This document shows, in pieces, positions 19,545-61,973 of a DNA stretch of 64,000 nt. The stretch covers positions 62,001 through 126,000 of the forward strand of contig CAIMFH010000190.1 in the NCBI GenBank assembly GCA_903840265.1, given 5' to 3'. The translations under genes and the position numbers were made by a program. The notes beneath the pieces were generated by a model that was not told where the DNA came from, ran no database searches, and saw nothing but the letters and a program-made list of their open reading frames with translations. Every line of letters starts with the position of its first letter. Position 1 is the first letter of the stretch. The stretch is from an uncultured Schlesneria sp. (lineage in GTDB: Bacteria; Planctomycetota; Planctomycetia; Planctomycetales; Planctomycetaceae).

Positions 19545-20885
19545 TCACTTTGTCGAAGATGCAACCAATGCGGAAGACGCCGTCTGTGACTTTCGGGCTA
19601 GCAGTGCGACTGCGAATAAGCTGATCACCGGAACAATCGGAGCCCGCATGCGAGCGTTCGTCCAATAGACCAGGTGAACAATCTGTACGGTCAGCACCAG
19701 TGCGAACAGCGGCCACCACTCCCATCGTCCAGTCTCTTTCAGACCAGACGCAGCGACAACCAGCATGCCGACGAAGAACAAGATCTCCAAGCAGGTGTAA
19801 TACCATCCCACCAATTGAATCAGCTTCGGACTCGCCGATGCTGCCGCCTCACTCTGCGGAACGGTACTCCAGAGGCTGCGGAAGCGATAACCAACCGCTC
19901 GCAGGAATCGCTCTGGATTCGCCGCGATAAATTGACGAGCCTGCTCGCTTTGCCACCGATCGCGAGCAATCTCCGAGGCATCAGGCCCAACAGCTTCGTC
20001 GAGACGACTCTGCAAATCGTGTTGCCACTCCTCAAAACTGCGCGGTCCCCAATCCGCTCCCCAGCCTCGATCAACGACTTCAGAGTAGAACACCGGATTA
20101 TTCGCCAGCAGCAGCGTATAACCACCGTGAGTCGTCATTAAGATCGGCGACCCCATCGTCAACTGATTCCGGATCACCCAGGGCGCAACAACGATTAATG
20201 TTCCTGCGACCAGACGCCAGGGGATCAGCGAACTCCGGGGAATCGATCGATCACAGGAACGGCGGCAAGACTTCAATGTCGCGCCAATTCCCCATCCAAC
20301 GAACGCCAGACCTGCTAATGGCCAGAATGTCGGTCGACACAGCACCAGGCATCCGAACAGGATGCCGATAATCATTTGCTGAATGAACTCAGAGCGATCT
20401 CGGCGGACAATCCACAAAATCAGAAGGGCGACTAACCCCGCACAGGTCACCTCCGTCATCGGCTGAGCGGAATACTGCAGCAACATCGGATCGACAGCGA
20501 CAAGCAAAGCGGCCAACATCGACCAGCGGCCCAAACCCAGCCAACCTCCTGCTCTCCAGACGGCCCAGACGGCGACAGCACCCCAAATCAAGTTAACAAT
20601 TGCGACCGCAGCGGCGGTCGGCACGATCAACATCAATCCCGCCAACTGGAGCGTAAACAAGGGAGGGCGAAACGCGGTCGGTGTCAGGCGAGCGACATCG
20701 GAGTATCCCCTTCCCTCGGCAACACCACGCGCAATCCCCAGATATGCGTCGCGATCATGGGTCAATTCGTGCGAGTGCAGCCACAGCACCGTTCCACGGA
20801 GCACGACAGCGACGATCAGACAGACGGCCAGTTCCCAGTACCTGGGCTGCAATAATCCTTTTGAGGTGGGCTGAGAATCCATCAT
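19545..20885 (-). CDS. GT-C fold membrane glycosyltransferase
   Basis: A 446-residue polytopic protein with about ten hydrophobic helices. The first loop after helix one has an acidic motif (ELTHDRDAYLGIARG) of the kind that coordinates the polyprenyl-phosphate sugar donor in ArnT/PMT-type enzymes. No large soluble C-terminal domain is present. It lies 26 bp downstream of the MMPL transporter gene on the same strand, so the two are probably co-transcribed, perhaps in making and exporting a glycolipid. That link is inference. Confidence 0.75.
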   Translation of the reverse strand: MMDSQPTSKGLLQPRYWELAVCLIVAVVLRGTVLWLHSHELTHDRDAYLGIARGVAEGRGYSDVARLTPTAFRPPLFTLQLAGLMLIVPTAAAVAIVNLIWGAVAVWAVWRAGGWLGLGRWSMLAALLVAVDPMLLQYSAQPMTEVTCAGLVALLILWIVRRDRSEFIQQMIIGILFGCLVLCRPTFWPLAGLAFVGWGIGATLKSCRRSCDRSIPRSSLIPWRLVAGTLIVVAPWVIRNQLTMGSPILMTTHGGYTLLLANNPVFYSEVVDRGWGADWGPRSFEEWQHDLQSRLDEAVGPDASEIARDRWQSEQARQFIAANPERFLRAVGYRFRSLWSTVPQSEAAASASPKLIQLVGWYYTCLEILFFVGMLVVAASGLKETGRWEWWPLFALVLTVQIVHLVYWTNARMRAPIVPVISLFAVALLARKSQTASSALVASSTK

Positions 20886-49175: not shown

Positions 49176-51026
49176 TCAATGACCAGATTCAATACCACGC
49201 TGAGCCAGCGGGATGTATTCGGTCTGCATCAGGAAATCCTTATCGCCACTGATTGGCGAGCTGTATTCGTAGGGGCCGTGATACACAACCGGTAGGATAT
49301 CGAAGTTGCCGTGCCCAGGAGGCGATGGTGCGGTCCATTCCAGACCATTCGCATTCCAAGGATTTCGCCCACACTTTTCACCGAAGAAGATACTGAATAA
49401 GAAGTTGCCCAACAGCAGGAACTGAGCGAACCCCATCAGGAATGCCGCCGCAGTCATCACCTGGTTCAGTGGCAGCAGGTGGCTGAGGTATTCGAAGTGA
49501 TACGGATCGGCATACCGTCGAGGCATCCCCGCGACACCTAGCAGGTGCATCGGGAAGAACGTCACGTTGAACCCGATGAACGACAGCACGAAGTGAACTT
49601 TTGCCACCGAGTCGTTCATCAACCGGCCCCACATCTTCGGGAACCAGAACTGGATTCCAGCAAACACACCGAACAGCGTCGAACCGAAGAGCACATAGTG
49701 AAAGTGAGCCACGATGAAATATGTATCGTGAATGTAGATATCGACGGGGACCGCGGCCATGAAGATCCCGCTCAAACCGCCGATGATGAACATCGATACG
49801 AACGCGATACAGTTCAGCATGACGGCATTGAACTGCAGACGACCACCCCAGATCGTTCCGATCCAGTTGAATGTCTTGATGGCGGATGGTAGCGCGATCA
49901 TCATCGTGCTGACCATGAACGTCATTCCCAGTGCCGGGTTCATCCCACTGATGAACATGTGGTGACCCCACACAATGAATCCCAAGCCAGCGATCGCTGC
50001 CATCGAATACACCATTGGCTTGTAGCCGAAGATTGGCTTACGGCTCATGCAAGACAGCATATCCGAAACCATTCCCATCGCTGGAAGCAACATGATGTAC
50101 ACAGCAGGATGCGAATAGAACCAGAACAAGTGTTGCCACAGCAGCGTCTGACCGCCACCGATTGTCGGAGCAGCGTTGTTCACGACGATGCCAGCCGGGA
50201 TAAAGAAGCACGTCCCCAACACGCGGTCCGCTACCAGCATGAAGCCGGCCGCAGTTAACACTGGCAGGGCGAACGCCTGCAGGATCGCCGTGATAAACAT
50301 GGCCCAAATCGTCAACGGCATGCGGAAGAGCGTCATCCCTGGAGCCCGCATATTGATGATCGTCGTCATGTAGTTGACCGAACCCATCATCGACGACACA
50401 CCGACGAAAGTCACAGCCATCAGCCACCATGTCTGAGACATCTCCGAACCAGGAGCGGCTTGCTTCAGTGCGGACAGCAGCGGATACGAAGTCCACCCCT
50501 GAGCCGACCCCGCATCCATTCCGCCTCGGACATGTGTTAGCCATTCGGGACCGAGACCGAGAGCGAAAGCGAAAAAGAGGATTGCAGGCCACATGAACCA
50601 ATAGCTCAGCATATTCAGTGTCGGAAACGCCATGTCATCCGCACCGATCATCAGCGGAATCAGGAAGTTTCCAAATGCACCCGCCAGAACAGGAATGATT
50701 ACCAGGAAGATCATCACCGTGGCATGCATGGTGAACAGCATCGTGTAGTATTCTGGCGAAATCTGACCGCCATCGCGGCCAAATGTCAGATCGCCAGCGA
50801 TCGGCATGTATTCCCACGGACGAGCCAACTGCCATCGGACGCCGAGTGCCAGTGCACCGCCGACCATCAGCATCAGCAGCGTCGTGACCAGGAACTGGAT
50901 CCCGATGATCTTATGATCTGTCGAGAAGACGTACTTCTGGATAAACGTCAACTCGTGATGGCCGTGCCCATGTCCATGGGAATCGTCGTGGCCAGCATGA
51001 TCGAGCGTAGGATGAAGTGTGCTCAT
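49176..51026 (-). CDS. ctaD: Cytochrome c oxidase subunit I (aa3 type, A2-like)
   Basis: A 616-residue catalytic subunit with twelve helices that reduces O2 to water and pumps protons. Heme and copper ligands are visible: H101 (low-spin heme a), H306 with the cross-linking Y310 (YSHPAVY), H355 and H356 (WGHHMF), and H441 and H443 (AHFHYV). YSHP in helix VI in place of xGHPEV points to the A2 subtype. The N-terminus is His-rich (HGHGHGHHE). The ATG at 51026 was chosen because the 12 upstream codons are not conserved. Confidence 0.97.
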   Translation of the reverse strand: MSTLHPTLDHAGHDDSHGHGHGHHELTFIQKYVFSTDHKIIGIQFLVTTLLMLMVGGALALGVRWQLARPWEYMPIAGDLTFGRDGGQISPEYYTMLFTMHATVMIFLVIIPVLAGAFGNFLIPLMIGADDMAFPTLNMLSYWFMWPAILFFAFALGLGPEWLTHVRGGMDAGSAQGWTSYPLLSALKQAAPGSEMSQTWWLMAVTFVGVSSMMGSVNYMTTIINMRAPGMTLFRMPLTIWAMFITAILQAFALPVLTAAGFMLVADRVLGTCFFIPAGIVVNNAAPTIGGGQTLLWQHLFWFYSHPAVYIMLLPAMGMVSDMLSCMSRKPIFGYKPMVYSMAAIAGLGFIVWGHHMFISGMNPALGMTFMVSTMMIALPSAIKTFNWIGTIWGGRLQFNAVMLNCIAFVSMFIIGGLSGIFMAAVPVDIYIHDTYFIVAHFHYVLFGSTLFGVFAGIQFWFPKMWGRLMNDSVAKVHFVLSFIGFNVTFFPMHLLGVAGMPRRYADPYHFEYLSHLLPLNQVMTAAAFLMGFAQFLLLGNFLFSIFFGEKCGRNPWNANGLEWTAPSPPGHGNFDILPVVYHGPYEYSSPISGDKDFLMQTEYIPLAQRGIESGH

Positions 51027-51116
51027 ATTTCTCAACCGCCTCTCGGCTTCTTTCTGCGACATTTGACCGTCGCCACCAACTGAAGATTGCCCTGAGTGAA
51101 CCTCTCGACAATCTGA

Positions 51117-51947
51117 CTATTCCGCAGGCTTTTTGAAGCCGTCATCAAACTGCTCAAGGGCAGCTTTATCCTTCCAGGCCCCGAAATCTTCGTCAGAGAC
51201 GGCGATCAGTCGAGCCTTCATTTTATAGTGACCCCACCCGCACAACTCGGCACAGACCATCTCGTACTGCCGCGGCTCGTCAACATCGAACCAGACAGGA
51301 ATCGTCAGGCCTGGCACGGCATCTTGTTTGATTCGCAATTCAGGGACGAAGAACGCGTGTTGCACGTCTTCCGTTTTCAGACTGATTGAGACGGGCCGAC
51401 CAGTGGGTACATGGAGTTCGTTGACGGTGTAAACGTCATCTGGCTGAGGCGTCGGCATCAGAGTCTTGCCTCGAGCAGGATAGCGAATCCGCCACTCGAA
51501 TTGACGGGCAGTCACCTCAGCAACGGCTTCCGCCTTCTTCGGCGAAAACTCCTTGAAGCGATAGGCGGCCCAAACGTCCATTTGGTACAGAGCGATATAG
51601 AGCAGAATCCCAGCAGGAACGATCGTCCAGATCACTTCCAGACTGTGGCTACCGTGCGAGAACAAGACTTTTTCTTCGGGCTTGATCGTTGCACCGCGCC
51701 ACAGAACGTATCCCAAAACGGCATGCGTCCCGATGTAAGTCACGGCGACGATCACCAGGACAAGATAGAACAAATCGTCGATCTTTTTACCGATTGACGA
51801 ATGAGCTACTCCAGCTCCAAATCCACCCTTGAGCGTTCCTGGAAACCACAACCCATAGCTAGGCGCGACCCAGCAAAGGCCGACCGCGATGACGGCGGAT
51901 GCGACAAAAAATACTGCCCAGAATCTGCCCACGGCACTTGCCTTCAC
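51117..51947 (-). CDS. ctaC: Cytochrome c oxidase subunit II with CuA site
   Basis: A 276-residue subunit with two N-terminal helix regions and a periplasmic cupredoxin domain. The CuA ligands are complete: H197 (DVQHAFF), C232, E234, C236, H240 and M243 (CAELCGWGHYKM). It has no fused cytochrome c domain, so the donor must be separate, and the operon provides a diheme cytochrome and a cupredoxin just upstream. The listed start is GTG. A GTG five codons later (51932) with AAGG upstream is possible. Confidence 0.95.
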   Translation of the reverse strand: MKASAVGRFWAVFFVASAVIAVGLCWVAPSYGLWFPGTLKGGFGAGVAHSSIGKKIDDLFYLVLVIVAVTYIGTHAVLGYVLWRGATIKPEEKVLFSHGSHSLEVIWTIVPAGILLYIALYQMDVWAAYRFKEFSPKKAEAVAEVTARQFEWRIRYPARGKTLMPTPQPDDVYTVNELHVPTGRPVSISLKTEDVQHAFFVPELRIKQDAVPGLTIPVWFDVDEPRQYEMVCAELCGWGHYKMKARLIAVSDEDFGAWKDKAALEQFDDGFKKPAE

Positions 51948-52001: not shown

Positions 52002-53492
52002 CTATTTGCTGACGGTTGCATGATCAGTCACGATCGACTTGGTCGGCGCTGACTGGAACTGCAGACTCATTACATAATTTACGATGTCCCAGATTTCTTC
52101 GTCCTTCAGAGCCGTCCGTCCGAATCCAGGCATTGGCGTCCCCTTGATCCCCGCATAGATGCGGCGGAACACATCGACCGGGCGACGTCCCCCACGGTAC
52201 TGGCCCAACGTCAAATTACGTGGCTGAAGAGGACGTCCCCACGTGTCATGCAAACCGCGGTGCGAGTAGTATTCATCTGAACCCGGCTTCTTCCAGAAGT
52301 CTTCCGTCGCGACACCATCGCCACGACCTTGCACACCATGGCATGTATAGCACTTACCTTTGTCGGACAAGTAAAGTCGCTTACCACGCTCGCGCGAAGC
52401 CTCGTTATCAGCGACTCGAGCTACTGTCGGAACAATCAGGCTATCTGCTTCTTCGCCCTTCTTCCAAGATTCCGCCAACAGCGTGGCCGTGTCATTGATG
52501 ACACCAGGAAGATCGTCCTTTTCATACTTCGAGAATTCTTCCAACGCAGTCTTGATCAACTGGTTCGCTGTCTTCGGCTTTTCTGGCTTGTCTTCTTTTT
52601 TCGCTGTCTTAATTGTTGTCTGGTAAGCTTCGTTTGCCTTCTTGGCAGAAGCCTCCATTGCAACAGCCGAGTAGTCGTTACTCATGTCATCATCGATGCG
52701 CTTCTCGAATTCGCCGCGCATCGACAGCCATCGAACGTACTCGACAACAGCAGTGGTTTCCTTGTCCCCCAACCACCTGAACGAAGGCATGTAGGTTCCT
52801 GGAATTCCGTGTTGAAGCACGCGAGTGAGATCGTCGCGAGTTGGCTTTTCGGGAGTCAGCGTGGAAGTGAACTTAAAGAGCCCCAGTCGATAGTCGCGAG
52901 GCAACGGGTTCAGATATTGTGCGGTCGGTCCGGCTCCATCGCCGGCAACCCCATGACAATGCATGCAGTTCTTCATATAGACCACACGACCGGTCTGCAG
53001 GTTGCTGCCATAACCAATCACGAACTTATCGCCGACGGCAGGGGCAGGCTCTGCACTTCCCGCCCACTTCAGTTGCTTCGTCGTTGCGTCAAATGTCGCA
53101 ACGCTGTCGACGCTGGTCTTCGCACCTGCACGTGGACCACTCAGCCACAACAGTGGAGCACCATGGTGAATCGCAGGAAGATCGCCTTCGAAATGGGTTG
53201 TCACACCGTCCTTCGCAACGTCTGCGACGCTTCCCTGCACTCCGCCATAGTTCACGGGGAACCGCTGCCAGGCGACAAGGTTTTGAGGCGTTCCGAATTT
53301 TTCATCCAGCGTTTTTTTGACGACCTTCTCCGCAGCCGGGATCAACTCGCCAGTCGCATCACGCAGACTGAATTCCGCCTTCGGCCCCTGTCCGCAACCG
53401 GACAGCAGGACGGCAATTCCGACCGCCAAACAGCAGAAATTCCGCTGTGATGCGGAGGCTGCCAATCGATAAGGTGATCTCAAACAAGACAT
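52002..53492 (-). CDS. Diheme cytochrome c lipoprotein
   Basis: A 496-residue lipoprotein (lipobox LLSGCG, lipidated C33) with two class I cytochrome c domains: C176-H180 (CMHCH) with probable Met ligand M235 (TYMPSF), and C381-H385 (CYTCH) with M454 (TPMPGF). A unique N-terminal domain of about 130 residues and a Lys-rich helical linker (290-350) surround them. Anchored on the periplasmic side, it is a good candidate for the donor to CuA of subunit II, whose gene follows. The ATG at 53492 places the lipobox correctly. Confidence 0.88.
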   Translation of the reverse strand: MSCLRSPYRLAASASQRNFCCLAVGIAVLLSGCGQGPKAEFSLRDATGELIPAAEKVVKKTLDEKFGTPQNLVAWQRFPVNYGGVQGSVADVAKDGVTTHFEGDLPAIHHGAPLLWLSGPRAGAKTSVDSVATFDATTKQLKWAGSAEPAPAVGDKFVIGYGSNLQTGRVVYMKNCMHCHGVAGDGAGPTAQYLNPLPRDYRLGLFKFTSTLTPEKPTRDDLTRVLQHGIPGTYMPSFRWLGDKETTAVVEYVRWLSMRGEFEKRIDDDMSNDYSAVAMEASAKKANEAYQTTIKTAKKEDKPEKPKTANQLIKTALEEFSKYEKDDLPGVINDTATLLAESWKKGEEADSLIVPTVARVADNEASRERGKRLYLSDKGKCYTCHGVQGRGDGVATEDFWKKPGSDEYYSHRGLHDTWGRPLQPRNLTLGQYRGGRRPVDVFRRIYAGIKGTPMPGFGRTALKDEEIWDIVNYVMSLQFQSAPTKSIVTDHATVSK

Positions 53493-53553
53493 CTTGGTTA
53501 CCGTCTGTGCGAAGCTATTTATTGAAATCAGCCGCGAAGCCACTTCACGCCGC

Positions 53554-54423
53554 TCACTTACCCAACTTGGAAGCGGCCACCTTGATCGTCACTTCATTAT
53601 CACCGGGCTTAACCGTGACAACAAAAGACTTCTCGAGCATTTTTCCGACTTCGTGCCACACCTTGAACTCGTGTTTTCCAGCGGGCAGATCTTTAATTTC
53701 GAACGTGCCGTCATCCTTCGAGACTGCGGCGAACGTGTGATCCAGCGGCAGATGATAGGCCTGCATCCACGGATGAATATCACAGCCGACCGAAACCGGT
53801 TCCTTCTCCACTTGATCGTACTTCAGAGGAACACCGACACGATCGTTTGGTTGAACGACACTGTTGAACGGCGAACTCTTCTTTGGATACGTATGCGTGT
53901 TGTGAGCAGCAGCATCATCGTTGAAGACGGTCACAACTTGCTTCGTTCTCATCACCAGGGCATGCGGCAGGAAGATGCAAGTCTTCTGGTCGAACTCAAT
54001 CGGTCCTGGAATCTCGGGAGTCTTCGAACCCTTCGGAGCTTTCTCGAGGTAGACGAAAACGTTCGCTAGACCGCCATCATTGACCACGATCCGCTGATCA
54101 GGAATCGCTTCAGCACCGCAAACGCTTGGATCCTTCGTCGCGGCTCCTTTGGCGAACAAAGGAGGCAACGGCGTGAAGGCACCGTCGAACACGACGCGGC
54201 CCTTGATCGAGCCGACACCACCTTCTGCAACTGGCTCAGCGGCTCCAGCATCCGTTGAAGGAGTCGTTGATTCTTCCGTGACAGCACTCGTATCAGCAAG
54301 ATACTTCACTGAGGGGACGGCATTCGCACCGCTGGCCAACGGTCCACAACCGCTGACGCTGCCAACCATCGCAGCAATCGACAATCCAACAGCAACCTGC
54401 TGCCAAGTCTTACTTAATTGCAT
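53554..54423 (-). CDS. Cupredoxin-like lipoprotein
   Basis: A 289-residue lipoprotein (SVSGCG, lipidated C26). After a disordered linker, residues about 70-235 form a plastocyanin-like domain with the type 1 copper pattern C-x2-H-x2-M (C214, H217, M220 in VGCDIHPWMQAY) and an upstream histidine (H174 or H177 in AHNTHTYP). The C-terminal part (FEIKDLPAGKHEFKVWHEVG) is a carboxypeptidase-regulatory-like beta domain. An electron-transfer role between the octaheme protein and the diheme protein or oxidase is inferred from the operon position. It lies two bases after the octaheme gene stop. Confidence 0.82.
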   Translation of the reverse strand: MQLSKTWQQVAVGLSIAAMVGSVSGCGPLASGANAVPSVKYLADTSAVTEESTTPSTDAGAAEPVAEGGVGSIKGRVVFDGAFTPLPPLFAKGAATKDPSVCGAEAIPDQRIVVNDGGLANVFVYLEKAPKGSKTPEIPGPIEFDQKTCIFLPHALVMRTKQVVTVFNDDAAAHNTHTYPKKSSPFNSVVQPNDRVGVPLKYDQVEKEPVSVGCDIHPWMQAYHLPLDHTFAAVSKDDGTFEIKDLPAGKHEFKVWHEVGKMLEKSFVVTVKPGDNEVTIKVAASKLGK

Positions 54424-54425
54424 GA

Positions 54426-57400
54426 TTAGTCGTTACCTCCTGCACCCGTAACCGGTGGCTTAGCGGGCTCATTGGCAACTTTGCCTTCTTTTTCCATCAA
54501 CTTGTAATAGTTCACCAACGCATCCCGCAGGGAGACTGTCTGACGCGAACCCTCGCCGCCAAAGATCTCGGGATATCGCGGCTGACCTCCCGCTTGTTGC
54601 GGAGGCAACGGAGCCGGCATCGATGTGTAAGGCGTAATCCATTGCGGACGGTAGAGCCACAGCAAAGTCCAATCGGGCTTCAAGCGCTCTGCCACTAGTT
54701 CCAGGTTCGGACCGCGAATATCAGTTTTCGGGTCGCTGATCGCCACCTGACGACCCGCCACCGAGTGACATTTGATACACAACGGAGCATTCAACATCTG
54801 CCAGGATTCTTGCAGATAATCAGCCTTCTTCTCGGGGAATGCCTTATGGAATTCGTTGTTCTTCTCACTCAGGTAAGCCGGTTCGCGTTCCGTGATTAAC
54901 TGGTACGGATATTCCGTTCCATCCACCGCAGCAAAGTAGTTCGCCAACGCTTGAGCATCCGAATCGCTCATATTGAACTTTGGCATTCGCAGCACGGTCG
55001 TATGTCGAATCCGACCAGGATTTCTCAGGAAGTTAAACAACCACGGTGTCTGAACCTTGGTCCCTTCCTTGTAGAGCGGTGGCGGAGACATCTGCCATGC
55101 CAATGCGGGTTCCTTGGCAGTTTTATTGTCCACCAATCGCTTCACCAACCACTCCGCGTAGGCACCACCCTGAGCTGGAATGATGCGATCCAGATTGGCG
55201 GCCGGGAAGATGAACTTATAGGTCGGCAGCAGATCCTTACCAGCGACGGACAGGTTATCCCACGATTCAACAACGTACTCCTGATCAGCCGGGTCATCCG
55301 CCGGATCTGGAGTCGCTGCCACCATCCCATGGAACTGGATGATCGGAAGCTTCTTCAAGCCTTCGGCAGTTTTGACAGTCTTCGTTTCGCCCGTCAGTGC
55401 GTTCTGCTTAGGTCGCAGCTTGTTCAACAAAGCGATCGCGTCTGGATACTCGACGGATTGATCGGATGCAGTGATCTGATCGACGTCTGCCCCATATCGG
55501 ATCTTCGGCAGTTCGAGCATATGACAGCCCGAGCAGTTGTACTGTTCAATCAGCTTTTCACCACGAATCCTGGCTCCTGCTGGGCCAGTTGGATTGTACA
55601 TGTACTCCGCTGATGGAGGCTCAGCGACCAACCCCACGACAAAGGTCGCAATCGCATCAATGTCGTCTTCCGAGAACGGGAACTTCGGCATCCGCAGACG
55701 ATCATCGTACGGCTTCGTTTCGATCATCTTGTAGTCGTAACTACGTGGTTGACGAAGCTTCTGCCATAGGAAGCCAGGACGACCATGATGCGTCAGGCTT
55801 TCATAGTAGAACGCGGCGGACAGTTCACGTTCCTTAGCTTCTGGTGTGTCGTACTCGTTTCGCTCGGCGCGGCCGATCGCGGATTCAACACGATCTTGCA
55901 TCGATGAATCTGCTGTCACTTGGACGGGCTCAGCCAATTCCTTGCCGTCTCGCCAGACCGTTGCGGCCACTTTGGAACCGACAACTGTACGAGCCAATTG
56001 CGCTTCGTAGTCAGCAGCATCATTGACTGGAACACCGTCCAGAGCGAGGACCACGTCGTCGTATTTGAACGCTGTCTTGCCAGCTTTCGACACGCGAACA
56101 CCTGCCGCTGATTCCAACTTCAATCGCGTGGCAACAGCCTGATCAATCTCTTCGATGCTGATACCAAGAGCCGCCTGACCATGATGATGCAGATACTCAT
56201 GGATATGCTCGAACGCCAGACGCGAACGATCCTTCTTACCCCAGTCCTGCAGAGCAGTCCCAATCGGACGTGCCTTTTCGAAGTTGGGGATATCATGGCA
56301 GCCATAGCAACCGTATCGCGTGATCGACTTGCGGCCGAGATAGTTCAACTTACGATTGCGGAATTCAGCCGGATTGGAACCGACAGGCTCACCAGCCAAC
56401 TCGATTTCATCACCCTTGATCTTGTCCGCAGCAATCGGGTACTGGCCAGATTCCATCAGCGCCTTGACCTGTGTCTCCGTCAGAACCTTCATCAGGAAGT
56501 AACTGACCAGCTTGTCGAGAACATCATCAGGAGCGTCAGGCACAGAGTACTGACTGCTTGGCTTGAAGTCGGCAGGTGCCCCTTCCAGCTTCAGCAGGAA
56601 CGCCGCAATATCAGCGGCGGGATCAACTTGGTTCTCGCCAGTTCCTTCGGCGTCGAGGAACAGATGAGGCATCTTTGTGCGGGGGTGATGTCGTTCCGGC
56701 TCACGAATCCAGGTGTACAGCCAATCGAAACCGACCTTGCCCGCTCGCAATTTGGCATGAACCTTTGACAGTTCCGGACCAAAGTCGGCGTTCAAACCCT
56801 GCACGTCTTGATGAGTATGACAGACCACACACCCCTTGGTTGCGAAGAACTCTTTACCACGTTCTGCGTTCGGCTTGTAACCGTCCGCTGGAGTCATCGT
56901 GTCGAGTGTTTCCGACTTCTTTTCCAAGTAGTGAGTCATCGCGGCGATTTCGACAGGATTGTACTGTCCCGCGAGATGATCAGACTGGTTATCAAGCTTG
57001 AAGAACTGCGGCATCCGAGTCGTAGGACGGAATCGTTTAGGCTCTTCTGTCCAATACGAAACAAAGCCTGCATCCGCCTTGGAAGCCAAGTGACGCAGCG
57101 ACGGTCCGACCTTTCGCATCTTCCCTGCGACCTGGTTCGGATCCTTGGCAATTTCAGCAGCTTCTTCAGCCGTCGAAGGCTCAAGGCGCAAGTCTGGCCC
57201 GATGATCTTCGGACCATCGTAGCCGGAAATCTCATGGCAACCGAAGCAGCCATACTTCTGGATCAGATTGTGACCGCGAACAACCTTCGGAGCGGTCGCG
57301 CCGAACTTCTCGTTCACGCCCAACTCGACGACATTGATATGGCACTTGATGCAGTTCGACTGCTCGAACCGCTTGGGACTCATCGGTCGTTCCCAGTAGT

Positions 57401-58469
57401 GGTTATCGAACCACTTGTGATCGTGAGCCCACTTGTCCATCTCAGCGGGATCATTCGGCGTATGCGACGCATTCTGGAATGATGTACCAGAACCCTGCCC
57501 TTCATGGCAAACCGTACAACCAAACTTCGGCAGCGGATGCGGACTGGTCGCACTTAAGTACAGACCAAGATTCGGGTGCGATGCAAAGGGATGCTTGAAC
57601 TTCCCATCCTTTGTTTCAGCCCCGTGCGGGAATGCTCCCGCCACCGAGGTCTTTACGGTATCGTCAACGATATCAATCGATGAGTGACAAGTGCGGCAAC
57701 GATCGAAGCGAGCCACATTCGTCATCCCACCCAGCGTGAACTGCAGACCTGGCATCCAGTCCTGAGTAATTCGCTCGGGTGAGTTAAAACCTTCGACGAT
57801 CGGCACCAGCATCAGCTTACGTTTGTAGTACTGCAGCGTCCCCTCATCGGGATCGATCTTCTCACGTGCAGCATGAATCAAGACGATATTTGCGTTTTCT
57901 GCCTTGAGATCCTTTTCGGCTTGATCACGCTGGCCGGTCATCTCAGATAGATAGGCCTTCGCATTGACAGTCGCCAGTTTCAATTCAGCAAACTTAATCT
58001 CCATCGCATCGACGCGATCAGAAATCTCTCTGTATTTCGCTTCCAGCGATTCAACTGGCAGGCTATCGCGAATACCGAGATTGTAGTTGGCGCGCGCCAC
58101 GTCTCGCTTCGCCCGCTCCAGTTTCAGCGCACGCAGATGATTCGCCTCGTTGTCACGCGCGACTCGCACAGCCTCTTCGCGGACATGCTCTTCTTTCGCC
58201 ACCGCCTTCAGCTGCTCGTCAGCAGCCTTCAGTCGTGCATCGGCATCGGCCACTTTGGCCTCGTGAGCAGGATTCTGTTCCATGCTCGCCTGACGCGCCT
58301 TCAGCCGAGTAGCCTGGAGCTTAAATGAAGCGCGTTGATAACCGCGCCACTCGTCACCAAAGTCAGCCTGCATCATCCACACGGTGACAATCAGCAGCAG
58401 CAACGCGCTACCACAAAACACCTGATGCATCAGCTTGGGACTGCGAAGATATTCTTCATTAGCCGGCAT
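54426..58469 (-). CDS. Octaheme c-type cytochrome with coiled coil and embedded PDZ domain
   Basis: A 1347-residue protein. One membrane anchor (about 17-33) is followed by a long helical coiled-coil region (about 50-205, break near LGIRDSLP). Then come eight CxxCH heme sites with first cysteines at 258, 318, 373, 408, 547, 721, 979 and 1231. Five modules pair a heme with a Met-Pro motif expected to give the axial Met: M486, M600, M927, M1162 and M1284. A PDZ domain (about 770-850, VVLALDGVPVNDAADYE) sits between heme 721 and M927. It is encoded directly after the cytochrome b genes, where cytochrome c1 would be expected, so it is the probable electron outlet of the b/Rieske complex. The ATG at 58469 was chosen. 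The longer frame has no extra domain. Confidence 0.9.
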   Translation of the reverse strand: MPANEEYLRSPKLMHQVFCGSALLLLIVTVWMMQADFGDEWRGYQRASFKLQATRLKARQASMEQNPAHEAKVADADARLKAADEQLKAVAKEEHVREEAVRVARDNEANHLRALKLERAKRDVARANYNLGIRDSLPVESLEAKYREISDRVDAMEIKFAELKLATVNAKAYLSEMTGQRDQAEKDLKAENANIVLIHAAREKIDPDEGTLQYYKRKLMLVPIVEGFNSPERITQDWMPGLQFTLGGMTNVARFDRCRTCHSSIDIVDDTVKTSVAGAFPHGAETKDGKFKHPFASHPNLGLYLSATSPHPLPKFGCTVCHEGQGSGTSFQNASHTPNDPAEMDKWAHDHKWFDNHYWERPMSPKRFEQSNCIKCHINVVELGVNEKFGATAPKVVRGHNLIQKYGCFGCHEISGYDGPKIIGPDLRLEPSTAEEAAEIAKDPNQVAGKMRKVGPSLRHLASKADAGFVSYWTEEPKRFRPTTRMPQFFKLDNQSDHLAGQYNPVEIAAMTHYLEKKSETLDTMTPADGYKPNAERGKEFFATKGCVVCHTHQDVQGLNADFGPELSKVHAKLRAGKVGFDWLYTWIREPERHHPRTKMPHLFLDAEGTGENQVDPAADIAAFLLKLEGAPADFKPSSQYSVPDAPDDVLDKLVSYFLMKVLTETQVKALMESGQYPIAADKIKGDEIELAGEPVGSNPAEFRNRKLNYLGRKSITRYGCYGCHDIPNFEKARPIGTALQDWGKKDRSRLAFEHIHEYLHHHGQAALGISIEEIDQAVATRLKLESAAGVRVSKAGKTAFKYDDVVLALDGVPVNDAADYEAQLARTVVGSKVAATVWRDGKELAEPVQVTADSSMQDRVESAIGRAERNEYDTPEAKERELSAAFYYESLTHHGRPGFLWQKLRQPRSYDYKMIETKPYDDRLRMPKFPFSEDDIDAIATFVVGLVAEPPSAEYMYNPTGPAGARIRGEKLIEQYNCSGCHMLELPKIRYGADVDQITASDQSVEYPDAIALLNKLRPKQNALTGETKTVKTAEGLKKLPIIQFHGMVAATPDPADDPADQEYVVESWDNLSVAGKDLLPTYKFIFPAANLDRIIPAQGGAYAEWLVKRLVDNKTAKEPALAWQMSPPPLYKEGTKVQTPWLFNFLRNPGRIRHTTVLRMPKFNMSDSDAQALANYFAAVDGTEYPYQLITEREPAYLSEKNNEFHKAFPEKKADYLQESWQMLNAPLCIKCHSVAGRQVAISDPKTDIRGPNLELVAERLKPDWTLLWLYRPQWITPYTSMPAPLPPQQAGGQPRYPEIFGGEGSRQTVSLRDALVNYYKLMEKEGKVANEPAKPPVTGAGGND

Positions 58470-58585: not shown

Positions 58586-59974
58586 TTAAATATTAAAAAA
58601 CCACTCGGGAATCGCGACGATATATTTCAGGTTTGCGGCCCACCGCAGAACCATCTTGATCGGCAGCGACATCATGAACAGCATCAGATTCGCCAGCACC
58701 ATGTACCGGAGAAATCCCATCTTCATGAAGAACTTACGGAACACCGTAGCAGCCATCAGCGGCGGCAAGGCAAACAGGTAAGCCGCCACGAGAACCAGAC
58801 CCAGCCACTCTCGCAACAGAATGTAACCAATCTTCACCGGCAACGCCGCATCCGACGGAGCAACGGGTAACTGCTGCCCCATCACCGACAGCCAGAACCA
58901 CTCCGAGACGTTGATGTTGTTCAACAGTTCGAGCTTGTGAACGTCCCAGTACTCGTAAGGACTGAAGAAGTTCCAGTTTGGACCTCGCAGGAACGTCCCC
59001 AACACGATCATCGCCACCCACAGCGGCAGGAAGCCGAACATGAACGTAATAATCGCGAACTTACGTTCGTTGAACGTGTAGTATCCGTTACCTAATTTGT
59101 TGAAGTCGATATACGGAATCGCCATCAAACCGACCAGAATCACACTCGGCAATACCACCCCGGCCATCCACGGATCGAAGTACACCAGCATTTCCTGGAG
59201 CCCCAGGAAGTACCACGGAGCCTTCGAGGGATTCGGCGTCTTGGCAGCCGATGCAGGCTCTTCCAATGGAGCCTGCAGGACGATCCCCCACGCAATCAAC
59301 AGCGCGGTAATCACAACCATGCAGATCAACTCAGTGTAAACGAGATCGGGCCAAGTCAGCACCTTCTCATTATTTTCCTGTTCGATCAACGGTTTCCCGG
59401 CCGCACGCCGACGGTCATTCTCCGTAGACTTCTTGAAGGCCAGCCAGGTGAAGAACCCGACGATATAGAGCATGCCCACGATCGGCACGTTGTCAGGCTT
59501 ACCGACAATCTGGCGGAAGTCGTAGTCGGTAATACTAAGAGTCATGAACAGCAGCGAGAAATTCAGCAGAACCCAACCGGCAGTCGGCGTCGTCCAAACC
59601 GACCGAAAGACGATCATGGCGATAAAGATCGTGGTCGAGCCGACGAAGAAAGCCACCGGGTTCGACGCCGCGTTAATTGGCGCCTTCAGGAACTCGGGCA
59701 TCCTCAACAAAAACGACTGGGCATTATCCGATCCGGTGAGATGCGAGACACCCACCATCAGCAACATGGCACAGTAGATGGCCCACAAGGACGCCACCGG
59801 AATCTCCTGCCCCTTACCCAGCAGCCCGCCCAGACTAAGCCGGACATTGCCATCAAGAGCGAAACTCCGGCGAACCCACGCTGCGTTCATTACAAACAAC
59901 AGCAGATACACCCAACCCAATCCGAACACCACGGATGAGGTGAGATCTGGGTTATGCTGCAGATGGGATTCCAT
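58586..59974 (-). CDS. Cytochrome b C-terminal half (subunit IV-like) with extra N-terminal helices
   Basis: A 462-residue polytopic protein. The subunit IV signature is in the middle: PNPSKAPWYFLGLQEML (252-255 APWY in place of PEWY, the quinol-site loop) followed by three helices. Unusually, about 190 residues with four to five helices precede it, and about 150 residues with further helices follow, against about 160 residues for a plain subunit IV. It completes the Qo side of the cytochrome b encoded just upstream. GGAAGAG precedes the ATG. The extra helices are of unknown origin. Confidence 0.85.
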   Translation of the reverse strand: MESHLQHNPDLTSSVVFGLGWVYLLLFVMNAAWVRRSFALDGNVRLSLGGLLGKGQEIPVASLWAIYCAMLLMVGVSHLTGSDNAQSFLLRMPEFLKAPINAASNPVAFFVGSTTIFIAMIVFRSVWTTPTAGWVLLNFSLLFMTLSITDYDFRQIVGKPDNVPIVGMLYIVGFFTWLAFKKSTENDRRRAAGKPLIEQENNEKVLTWPDLVYTELICMVVITALLIAWGIVLQAPLEEPASAAKTPNPSKAPWYFLGLQEMLVYFDPWMAGVVLPSVILVGLMAIPYIDFNKLGNGYYTFNERKFAIITFMFGFLPLWVAMIVLGTFLRGPNWNFFSPYEYWDVHKLELLNNINVSEWFWLSVMGQQLPVAPSDAALPVKIGYILLREWLGLVLVAAYLFALPPLMAATVFRKFFMKMGFLRYMVLANLMLFMMSLPIKMVLRWAANLKYIVAIPEWFFNI

Positions 59975-60041
59975 AACTCTTCCGCTACCCACTGATCGAA
60001 CAAAGCCGTATCAAGCCACCACAAACAACGACCACCACGAA

Positions 60042-60815
60042 TCACAGAGGCTGACTGATGCCGCCGTCCTTCCGGACGCGCCAGAAGTGAATCGCGATCA
60101 ACAGCGACACTACGAGCGGAATCGCGACGCAGTGCAGAATATAAAACCGATTCAACGTCGCTTCACTCACAAAGCGACCGCCCAGAAGCAGGAAGCGAGC
60201 GTCGCTGCCGCTGGTAATCAGGTCGTATCCGCCAATATTTAATAGCTGAGCACCCGGGCCTTCATAACCCAAGAATGGCGTCGCACGAGCCATGTTCGAA
60301 CCGACTGTGATCGCCCAGATTGCCAACTGATCCCATGGCAGCAGATAGCCGGTGAACGACAGCAACAGCGTCAACACCAGCAGCAACACACCAATGACCC
60401 AGTTGAATTCCCGCGGCGGCTTGTAACTTCCCGTCAGGAACACGCGGTACATATGCAGCCACACGGTAATCACCATCGCGTGAGCACCCCATCGATGCAC
60501 CTCGCGCATGATCCCCAAGGTAGTCACATCGCGCAGCGCCAGAATGTCATTGAAGGCAAACTGCAGCGTTGGCCGGTAATAGAACATCAACAACACGCCG
60601 GTAATGGTCTCTACCAGAAACAGAAAGAACGTAATCCCGCCCATACACCAAGTGTATGACAGAGCAATCCCCTGCTGCTTGATCGACACGGGATGCAGAT
60701 GCAGGAAAAAGTTAGTCAGCATCACGACGATGCGGTTTCGGCGATCGACCGGAGCCGGATGCCGAAAGATACTCTTCCAAATCTGCGAGCCGCGAATGTA
60801 ATCGCCGACAGACAT
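60042..60815 (-). CDS. Cytochrome b6-type subunit (N-terminal half of cytochrome b)
   Basis: A 257-residue four-helix protein that carries the two b hemes of the quinol-oxidising complex. Heme histidines are H107 and H121 on helix B (REVHRWG, WLHMYR) and H228 and H243 on helix D. The second pair is 15 residues apart, as in cytochrome b6, not 14 as in mitochondrial cytochrome b. C57 in [11 protein letters not shown] aligns with the b6 cysteine that binds heme ci covalently. [12 protein letters not shown] forms the Qo region. It lies between Rieske and the C-terminal half. Confidence 0.93.
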
Positions 60816-60857: not shown

Positions 60858-61973
60858 TCAGCTAACCGCAATGAAGGAAGCAGGATCAGTCCACTGCCCC
60901 ATTTCCTCTTGGAACTTCATGCTCTTATCGACTTCCAGCATCCCTTCAGCGATCTTGACACCCATCCGCTCCAGCGGTCGAGGTGCCGGACCTTCGAAGT
61001 TTACGCCAGTGATATAGAAGCCAGACCCGTGACAGGGACACTTGAACTTCTGCTCGCCATCCAGCCAACTGGGCGTGCAACCCAAGTGAGTACAGACCGA
61101 GGCCAGCGCGAATATCAGATTCTGACCCTCATACTGGTCGGTGTGAATAATCCACACCCCATACTGGTCTTTCCACTTATTCGACACACTATTCAGCGGG
61201 TAATCCGAGAGCGGACCAACCTTGAACTTTGAAGGGGGCTCAACCAAGACGTTGGGCATCATGAAACGAGCCGTCTCCAACGTCCCCAACGCAGTCACTT
61301 CGGCCAGAGCAGCCCAAGCAGCCATAAAAGGAGACATCAACAGCGACCAGATCAGCATCCCCAGCAGGAACAAGAACCAGCTTCCTGTCACAGCCGCACC
61401 AACAAAGCAACCAAGACTCACCAAGGCGACGGAGACAATCGCCGCTAGACTTCGTCGCTGTGGAGCAGGAGTCGCCTTCTTCGACGCAACCGGAACCGGC
61501 TTGGCAGGAACCGGAGGAGCAACAACAACTGGCTTGGCGATACCAGAAGCAACAGGCGTCGCCACCACAGCGCCAGCCTTGCCTTCACGAACCGCCTTCA
61601 GCATATCTTGCACAGATGGACGCGGCGCCGCCGAAGCAGCGGCGACCGCGGGCTTCGCAGCGGCAGGAACCGGAGTTGAGGCGGCAGCCTCGGCCGGAGG
61701 TGCAACCGCAGCGGGCGTTGCCGCCGCACTGCCAGCACCCTTAGCTCGAATCGCTGCCAGAATATCCTTCGTTGAACCTGGCTTCGCTGCAGGAGCAGCT
61801 GGCTTGGCAGCCGGCGCAGGCGACTCGGGAGTCGCCGCTGCAGCAACGGGTTCAGCGGCCGCTGGTGCAGGCGTTTCTGCAGGAGCCGCCGAAGACGCTT
61901 CAGCAGCCGCAGCGGCTTTCTGAGCGCGAATCTTCGCTAAAATATCTGCTGTGGAAGGCTTTTTCTCGTCCAT
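60858..61973 (-). CDS. Rieske iron-sulfur protein with Ala/Pro-rich N-terminal extension
   Basis: A 371-residue protein and first gene of the operon. The C-terminal Rieske domain has the [2Fe-2S] ligands C294 and H296 (CTHLGC) and C312 and H315 (CPCHGSG), with C299 and C314 placed for the disulfide. Before it lie a hydrophobic region (about 175-225, probably two helices) and, unusually, about 170 residues of Ala/Pro-rich linker with three copies of a short motif: ADILAKIRAQKA (9-20), KDILAAIRAKGA (69-80) and QDMLKAVREGKA (122-133). The extension should be on the cytoplasmic side. Its role is unknown. Antisense frames here are compositional shadows. Confidence 0.92.
   Translation of the reverse strand: MDEKKPSTADILAKIRAQKAAAAAEASSAAPAETPAPAAAEPVAAAATPESPAPAAKPAAPAAKPGSTKDILAAIRAKGAGSAAATPAAVAPPAEAAASTPVPAAAKPAVAAASAAPRPSVQDMLKAVREGKAGAVVATPVASGIAKPVVVAPPVPAKPVPVASKKATPAPQRRSLAAIVSVALVSLGCFVGAAVTGSWFLFLLGMLIWSLLMSPFMAAWAALAEVTALGTLETARFMMPNVLVEPPSKFKVGPLSDYPLNSVSNKWKDQYGVWIIHTDQYEGQNLIFALASVCTHLGCTPSWLDGEQKFKCPCHGSGFYITGVNFEGPAPRPLERMGVKIAEGMLEVDKSMKFQEEMGQWTDPASFIAVS

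Follow-up and report, generated by a model that had tools for sequence, protein, structure and literature searches.

The actinobacterial bcc-aa3 supercomplex is a respiratory assembly in which a multihaem c subunit and tethered carriers feed CuA directly, and its QcrC subunit has two haems. In the anammox Rieske/cytochrome b complex Kustd1480-1485 a multihaem c protein takes the place of cytochrome f, and the accessible parts of the report on it (PMC12954380) give a 'hexa- or octaheme' c subunit for two anammox complexes jointly, and not which is which. The same parts give Kustd1485 a membrane helix and, in an AlphaFold3 model, long helices wound around the complex (PMC12954380). MamP, as presented in the accessible part of its description, is a PDZ-bearing c-type cytochrome of solved structure, dimeric mainly through PDZ contacts (PMC3971196). 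Here a stretch of 64,000 nucleotides from an uncultured Schlesneria sp. (contig CAIMFH010000190.1, positions 62,001 to 126,000), hereafter the window, was analysed for a gene encoding a giant octahaem c-type cytochrome whose sixth haem domain is broken by a PDZ domain. We consider it likely that this protein is the c subunit of a b6f-like complex in which it replaces cytochrome c1 or f, that it is wired to a CuA oxidase and that its PDZ domain lies off the electron path and serves as a contact module. A multihaem substitute for c1 or f is already known and is found here in a CuA-oxidase-linked branch; since the anammox precedent is published and eight haems are general in our sample, the multihaem or giant nature of the subunit is not the novelty. 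What is new is the insertion of a PDZ domain into a cytochrome domain within a subunit of a respiratory complex. A preliminary description made from the letters of the window had called a multihaem, PDZ-bearing c1 substitute of this size foreign to textbook complexes, which stands for the PDZ insert and falls for the multihaem part, known from anammox bacteria in the accessible text of PMC12954380. No description of the aerobic oxidase-linked branch or of the PDZ insert was found among the papers listed by searches of the open-licence PubMed Central literature, nor any paper there combining 'PDZ domain' with 'multiheme cytochrome'.

Residues 766-854 of the octahaem protein are a real HtrA-type PDZ domain, located between the CxxCH motif at 721 and Met 927 in a loop of the haem 6 domain, close to the limits of about 770-850 first proposed for it. 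The PDZ_2 family (PF13180) matches at 767-845 with E = 6e-7 and 30.1 bits, above its cut-off of 27. Modelling of residues 200-1347, with 85 of the 94 aligned proteins in the structure alignment, gave a mean predicted local distance difference test score (pLDDT) of 90.1 and a predicted template modelling score of 0.87, with blocks of 85-96 over the PDZ stretch. Residues 766-854 superpose on the PDZ domain of MucD (8k2y_B; Z 14.9, root-mean-square deviation (rmsd) 1.2 A, 86 residues) and also on that of DegQ, so that the test of a PDZ-like fold by structure model, set beforehand, was passed. A model of residues 722-930 from 14 sequences was poor overall (mean pLDDT 65.7) with PDZ blocks of 70-92, and the best PDB match of its PDZ stretch was DegQ PDZ1 (Foldseek, 3stj_A, E 2.1e-7). 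The structure-superposition rows were mostly filled by the PDZ domain, and the absence of multihaem matches there carries no meaning. Elsewhere in its own genome the window PDZ is matched best, at E 1.6e-7, by the first of the PDZ domains in an HtrA-like protease, a protein named from its sequence. In the PDZ-less relative G387 the match to residues 1-765 ends at base 20303 and the match to residues 855-1342 starts at base 20313, and because the flanks are nearly contiguous there the PDZ domain is a genuine insertion. A single cytochrome domain is divided into the flanks 722-765 and 873-930, both of them conserved (identity 0.91 and 0.82, respectively, in 14 proteins with a PDZ at this site).

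The surrounding haem frame is uniform. The protein has one hydrophobic segment, its single anchor, and eight CxxCH motifs (Table 1), both as originally read; the eight motifs are not due to chance, since none of 20000 shuffled sequences reached eight and the maximum was 1. Its haem domains match class I cytochrome families in a Pfam scan and a PDB profile search, the latter with 132 sequences at E 0.01; among the 60 matches listed, which were to single cytochrome domains or partial stretches, was alternative complex III subunit A (6btm_A, 8.6e-8). The domain of the fifth motif superposes on SoxX (2c1d_B, Z 11.3) in the model of residues 200-1347. H298, H311 and H336 together with M486, M600, M927, M1162 and M1284 are invariant in 94/94 aligned proteins, that is, 93 loci and the window protein. 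The simplest reading, as three His and five Met are conserved, is probably that haems 1-3 are bis-His and haems 4-8 His/Met ligated, and the three His fit the suggestion of bis-His haems 1-3 in the preliminary description. That account had five Met-Pro ligand motifs; six internal Met-Pro pairs were counted (239, 486, 600, 927, 1162 and 1284), and the Met of the last five are the invariant ones. Residues 39-215 (37% charged, 3 Pro and 4 Gly) are likely a long helical region. The coiled coil formerly placed here found no support in a crude periodicity test, as 617/2000 shuffles reached the mean and 1450/2000 the maximum of the 3.5-residue periodicity.

The octahaem frame is general in the chosen sample of the phylum and not special to the window protein. 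Loci were drawn from 15 named contigs, 294 phylum genomes and 170 family genomes and were selected by a strong match with a placed position and an open reading frame (ORF) with at least four CxxCH, so the finding of exactly eight CxxCH in 93/93 planctomycete loci speaks for the chosen set. The alignment holds 93 distinct sequences among 94, L012 and L088 being identical. Two proteins with eight CxxCH, L006 and L010, which differ from L005 at 81-84 positions over 1368 aa, were left out, and six truncated loci (L037, L039, L040, L041, L042 and L044), with 5-7 CxxCH up to the point of truncation, stand outside the set. Tallies of 193/294 and 164/170 genomes cannot be read as numbers of octahaem genes, since they include cytochrome matches that are weak. 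In a scan for close relatives 15/15 confirmed loci were planctomycete; sampling was otherwise confined to the phylum.

Along the lines of the profile search for the PDZ insertion proposed at the outset, profiles, Pfam scans and alignments placed PDZ domains at two loops in 12/38 sampled family genera. At the window position between haem 6 and Met 927 (site A) the domain was present in 15/15 genomes of the same genus and in 3/3 of genus g6, as judged by alignments unbroken across 766-855. The 14 fetched site-A members form one clade (support 1.0), and by this phylogeny the site-A PDZ was gained once, in the common ancestor of the two genera. At site B, between Met 600 and haem 6, PDZ domains occur in ten other genera. 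Nine of ten site-B members scanned with Pfam pass the PDZ cut-off and L053 is below it (22.8 against 27); L052, L054 and L055 were checked by our own profiles only, which covered 13 site-B members. Pfam scans of site A covered the window protein and L012 only, and the site-B profile detects all 14 site-A members. The site-A profile detects 12/13 site-B members at E 0.1, missing L106 (E 0.018 with filters off), and the site-B profile also matches 11 PDZ-less proteins, mostly over 30-60 residues of shared flank. Site-B PDZ domains stand at three places on the tree, and because the support of their common node is low (0.615) the number of site-B gains is not fixed.

Inserts of other kinds were also seen. 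Genus g7 (L101 3722-4486, L102 3764-4528 and L048 10183-10650) has a non-PDZ insert in the haem 6-Met loop, which in L048 gives a weak PPIC rotamase-like match (E 4e-4, 21.7 bits against 27) and is possibly folding-related, and L092 has an insert without a PDZ match in the same loop. Large inserts between CxxCH 4 and 5 (L099, L111 and L115) and between CxxCH 7 and 8 (L107 and L101) gave no match to the site-A profile, and the insert of L048 between CxxCH 7 and 8 gave only a weak FlaG match with Pfam.

Separate capture of the site-A and site-B domains is hinted at by sequence comparison and not settled. With the site-A profile PDZ1 of L139, the HtrA-like protease of the same genome, scored 55.4 bits, higher than all 13 site-B PDZ domains (best L114, 51.9). 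With the site-B profile L139 was not singled out (L089 60.0, L012/L088 59.2, L139 56.5, remaining site-A members 24-53). A 30-tip PDZ tree of 103 columns grouped 13 site-A tips with two HtrA-like PDZ1 domains to the exclusion of site-B (support 92); support at most other deep nodes was 21-78, labels can shift on rerooting and the two HtrA-like proteins are from one genome. In close pairs the PDZ is under purifying selection, evolving much faster than the haem frame: the ratio of nonsynonymous to synonymous substitution rates (dN/dS) was 0.03, 0.09 and 0.15 for the PDZ in three close pairs and 0.03, 0.005 and 0.02 for the flanks in the same pairs. Purifying selection together with fast drift is less in keeping with electron transfer than with either a contact whose partner varies or an ornament that is tolerated.

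Table 1. Features of the octahaem cytochrome gene and its operon, in window coordinates.
Feature	Coordinates	Strand	Basis
Octahaem c-type cytochrome, probable c1/f substitute	54426..58469	(-)	1347 aa; ATG 58469, stop 54426
Single membrane anchor, residues 17-35	58365..58421	(-)	Hydropathy
Charged linker, residues 39-215, probably helical	57825..58355	(-)	Composition only
CxxCH 1 (258)	57684..57698	(-)	First Cys identical in 94/94 aligned
CxxCH 2 (318)	57504..57518	(-)	First Cys identical in 94/94 aligned
H298, H311, H336 (likely distal ligands of haems 1-3) and CxxCH 2	57462..57578	(-)	94/94; role inferred
CxxCH 3 (373)	57339..57353	(-)	First Cys identical in 94/94 aligned
CxxCH 4 (408)	57234..57248	(-)	First Cys identical in 94/94 aligned
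Met 486, likely haem 4 ligand	57012..57014	(-)	94/94; role inferred
CxxCH 5 (547)	56817..56831	(-)	First Cys identical in 94/94 aligned
Met 600, likely haem 5 ligand	56670..56672	(-)	94/94; role inferred
CxxCH 6 (721), haem domain broken by PDZ domain	56295..56309	(-)	First Cys identical in 94/94
Inserted HtrA-type PDZ domain, residues 766-854	55908..56174	(-)	Pfam; models; fold matches
Met 927, likely haem 6 ligand, past PDZ insert	55689..55691	(-)	94/94; role inferred
CxxCH 7 (979)	55521..55535	(-)	First Cys identical in 94/94 aligned
Met 1162, likely haem 7 ligand	54984..54986	(-)	94/94; role inferred
CxxCH 8 (1231)	54765..54779	(-)	First Cys identical in 94/94 aligned
Met 1284, likely haem 8 ligand	54618..54620	(-)	94/94; role inferred
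Rieske iron-sulphur protein	60858..61973	(-)	PF00355 over cut-off
b6-type cytochrome b	60042..60815	(-)	PF00033 over cut-off
Subunit IV-like protein, extra hydrophobic segments	58586..59992	(-)	PF00032 just over cut-off (23.5 vs 20.7); hydropathy
Probable lipid-anchored cupredoxin	53554..54423	(-)	Lipobox-like C26 90%; H174, C214, H217, M220
Probable lipid-anchored dihaem cytochrome c	52002..53543	(-)	PF00034 over cut-off
Oxidase subunit II with CuA ligands (CoxB)	51117..51947	(-)	CoxB TIGR02866 over cut-off
Oxidase subunit I (CoxA)	49176..51062	(-)	Named from sequence, without library scan

The octahaem gene directly follows those of b6 and subunit IV, where c1 or f would be expected and where the preliminary description had already put it. 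The make-up is b6f-like, with a split b6 and subunit IV beside a Rieske protein (Pfam, NCBIfam), and Cys57 of the cytochrome b, conserved in 94% of 50 sequences, is at what we take to be the position of haem cN attachment. No match to a cytochrome f or c1 family was obtained among the seven operon proteins (Pfam, NCBIfam, E up to 0.1). The order is widely kept: Rieske and b6 were each found upstream in 42/45 loci with at least 3.9 kb of upstream sequence, subunit IV upstream in 83/88 with at least 1.2 kb, the cupredoxin downstream in 75/85 with at least 1 kb and the oxidase downstream in 21/21 loci of the nearest set with at least 5.5 kb. The four candidate copper ligands of the cupredoxin are at least 99% conserved in 72 sequences. 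No Pfam family reaches its cut-off in this protein, which by its H and C-x2-H-x2-M ligands and lipobox-like Cys possibly represents an undescribed cupredoxin family. In 27 sequences of the dihaem cytochrome C50, the second CxxCH, M252 and M471 are present in all and the first CxxCH in 96%, and the CuA residues H197, C232, C236, H240 and M243 of CoxB are present in 25/25. The ORFs after CoxB were named CoxA, CtaA, CtaB, CoxC and CyoD in the same manner as CoxA in Table 1.

From this arrangement we infer that the core of b6, subunit IV and Rieske would oxidise quinol and that electrons would go from the Rieske protein to the octahaem subunit, along its haems to the cupredoxin and the dihaem cytochrome c, both probably lipid-anchored, and on to the CuA oxidase of the same operon. 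The result would be a complex III-IV chain with every carrier tethered, and because all the carriers look tethered, assembly of complexes III and IV would be likely. The HtrA-PDZ1-type domain would lie outside the electron path and make protein contact with a partner, an assembly factor or a second protomer; that it has a contact role of any kind we favour only slightly. Of the 'electron wire or scaffold' envisaged beforehand, the built-in electron route is, in outline, the best reading because the gene follows b6/subunit IV in an operon that runs to a CuA oxidase, and the PDZ domain does not belong to the core of the wire, since 67/94 aligned proteins lack it (site-A profile, E 0.1).

Several observations weigh against the proposed complex or its docking module, that absence among them. 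The oxidase adjoins the cluster in only 24/41 loci of the whole set with at least 5.5 kb downstream, and the oxidase link is therefore a feature of one branch. Weak QcrC-type matches (cut-off 200) were obtained for the dihaem protein (34.6 bits) and the octahaem protein (28.7 bits), and because of the former the c1 role may be partly that of the dihaem protein. The same genome contains a second Rieske/cytochrome b pair (L137 6509-8973, contig C25). Mean pairwise identity of the PDZ is 0.43 against the 0.91 and 0.82 of its flanks, its dN/dS rises to 0.72 in distant pairs (dS > 1 in most), and such fast drift is unlike contact with one conserved partner. HtrA PDZ domains recruit partners or report misassembly through free C-termini. 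None of the C-termini of Rieske, b6, subunit IV, cupredoxin, dihaem cytochrome c and CoxB tracks the presence of the PDZ when compared by eye: subunit IV has a hydrophobic -FFNI-like tail both with and without PDZ, the b6 tails are near identical and those of the other operon proteins vary independently of it (subunit IV rows L048, L051, L056, L076, L101, L102 and L108, with misread frames, were not used). The octahaem protein itself ends in V, I, L, F, M, W or Y in 0/14 site-A, 1/13 site-B and 1/67 other proteins; its own C-terminus was rejected as a plug for the PDZ, as no ending pattern follows PDZ presence. The cytochrome b of the second pair (627 aa) is fused to a c domain with two CxxCH, a layout shared with Kuste3096-3097 in the accessible parts of PMC12954380.

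The same drift and the missing tail partner would be expected if the PDZ were a neutral ornament, surface loops tolerating large inserts with no binding function, and PDZ-less inserts in the same loop (g7, L092) and in other loops (L099, L111, L115, L107) point the same way. We regard this as doubtful in view of the purifying selection in the three close pairs and of G769, which we place in the carboxylate-binding loop of PDZ domains and which is identical in all 14 site-A rows. The occurrence of PDZ at two loops, with site B on three branches, would in our judgement also suggest more than random choice of domain. Repeated capture of an HtrA-like PDZ into the c1-like subunit, at two loops, as a docking or quality-control site is an equally tentative proposal. 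A lower probability still is given to PDZ-to-PDZ contacts joining two protomers of a dimeric complex. MamP, a PDZ-mediated dimer in the accessible part of its description (PMC3971196), is among the fold matches (4jj0_A, Z 12.4), and Rieske/b complexes are dimers according to the accessible parts of PMC12954380; the haem domains of MamP are of another fold, with the PDZ beside rather than inside them, as far as that part of PMC3971196 describes them.

It is very improbable that the octahaem protein acts apart from the complex, as an electron store or a reductase in the periplasm whose gene simply shares the transcript, with the dihaem protein as the true c1 equivalent. The tie of the octahaem protein to the complex is here one of gene neighbourhood only, the neighbours are rearranged or missing at L062, L066, L073, L075, L081 and L082, and the dihaem protein has its weak QcrC-type match. 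The neighbourhood is nevertheless kept from anammox to aerobic planctomycetes, and a dihaem gene was not found near 15/41 loci with at least 5.5 kb downstream. The accessible parts of PMC12954380 also have the anammox counterpart modelled inside its complex and cite co-migration for the sister complex Kuste4569-4574. The octahaem c subunit of a b6f-like complex hence stays the preferred reading, and with it an anammox peculiarity, the multihaem protein in place of cytochrome f, is widened to other planctomycetes. As the octahaem subunit occurs across planctomycetes, a complex III of this type can be viewed as widespread in the group, with the anammox complex as one of its branches. With the PDZ insert, nature has run a domain-insertion experiment on a conserved protein of electron transfer, for which many sister species that lack the PDZ serve as controls; whether respiratory complexes can gain protein-docking modules can thereby be tested directly. 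HtrA-PDZ capture, if true, would mean that a core enzyme of respiration contains a module for sensing peptides.

Compared with known systems, the closest likeness is to the anammox complexes. The window operon shares with Kustd1480-1485, as described in the accessible parts of PMC12954380, the Rieske protein, a b6-like cytochrome b, a subunit IV-like protein and a large multihaem c subunit. Hydrazine synthase was found in 7/7 anammox candidates tested and is absent from the own genome and G024. Loci L067-L070, from four of these seven and retrieved in part, encode an octahaem version of 938-980 aa without PDZ, with eight CxxCH and the three His and five Met, 27-28% identical to the window protein. 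The L067 cluster consists of Rieske, b6, an NAD(P) oxidoreductase-like gene (a reading from sequence), subunit IV and the octahaem protein, which is the gene make-up published for Kustd1480-1485 in the accessible parts of PMC12954380. The oxidoreductase-like protein of L067 (3541-5241), between b6 and subunit IV, has 566 aa and Cys clusters; in L070 the b6 gene is too close for such a gene, and the sequence of L069 is too short to tell. No oxidase match was found within 8 kb downstream at L067 and L068, and L069 and L070 end sooner. The window protein differs from the anammox versions in its 1347 aa, its PDZ insert and the cupredoxin, dihaem cytochrome c and CuA oxidase that follow. Cytochrome b6f and bc1 complexes have in common with the window operon the Rieske protein, the four-helix b6 with subunit IV and a c-type subunit on the positive side, but their cytochrome f or c1 has one haem where a giant octahaem protein is found here. 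Relative to bcc-aa3 the window operon has eight haems, a copper protein and a further dihaem protein, and would probably form a supercomplex. PDZ1 of HtrA/Deg proteases is like the window PDZ in fold and sequence, and the window protein is without a protease domain. The PDZ of MamP (4jj0_A) superposes on it over 85 residues with rmsd 1.8. MamP and MamE carry c-type haems and PDZ on one chain, as the window protein does, but in the accessible part of PMC3971196 they have small tandem magnetochrome domains beside the PDZ, not a PDZ inserted in a class I fold, and are non-respiratory.

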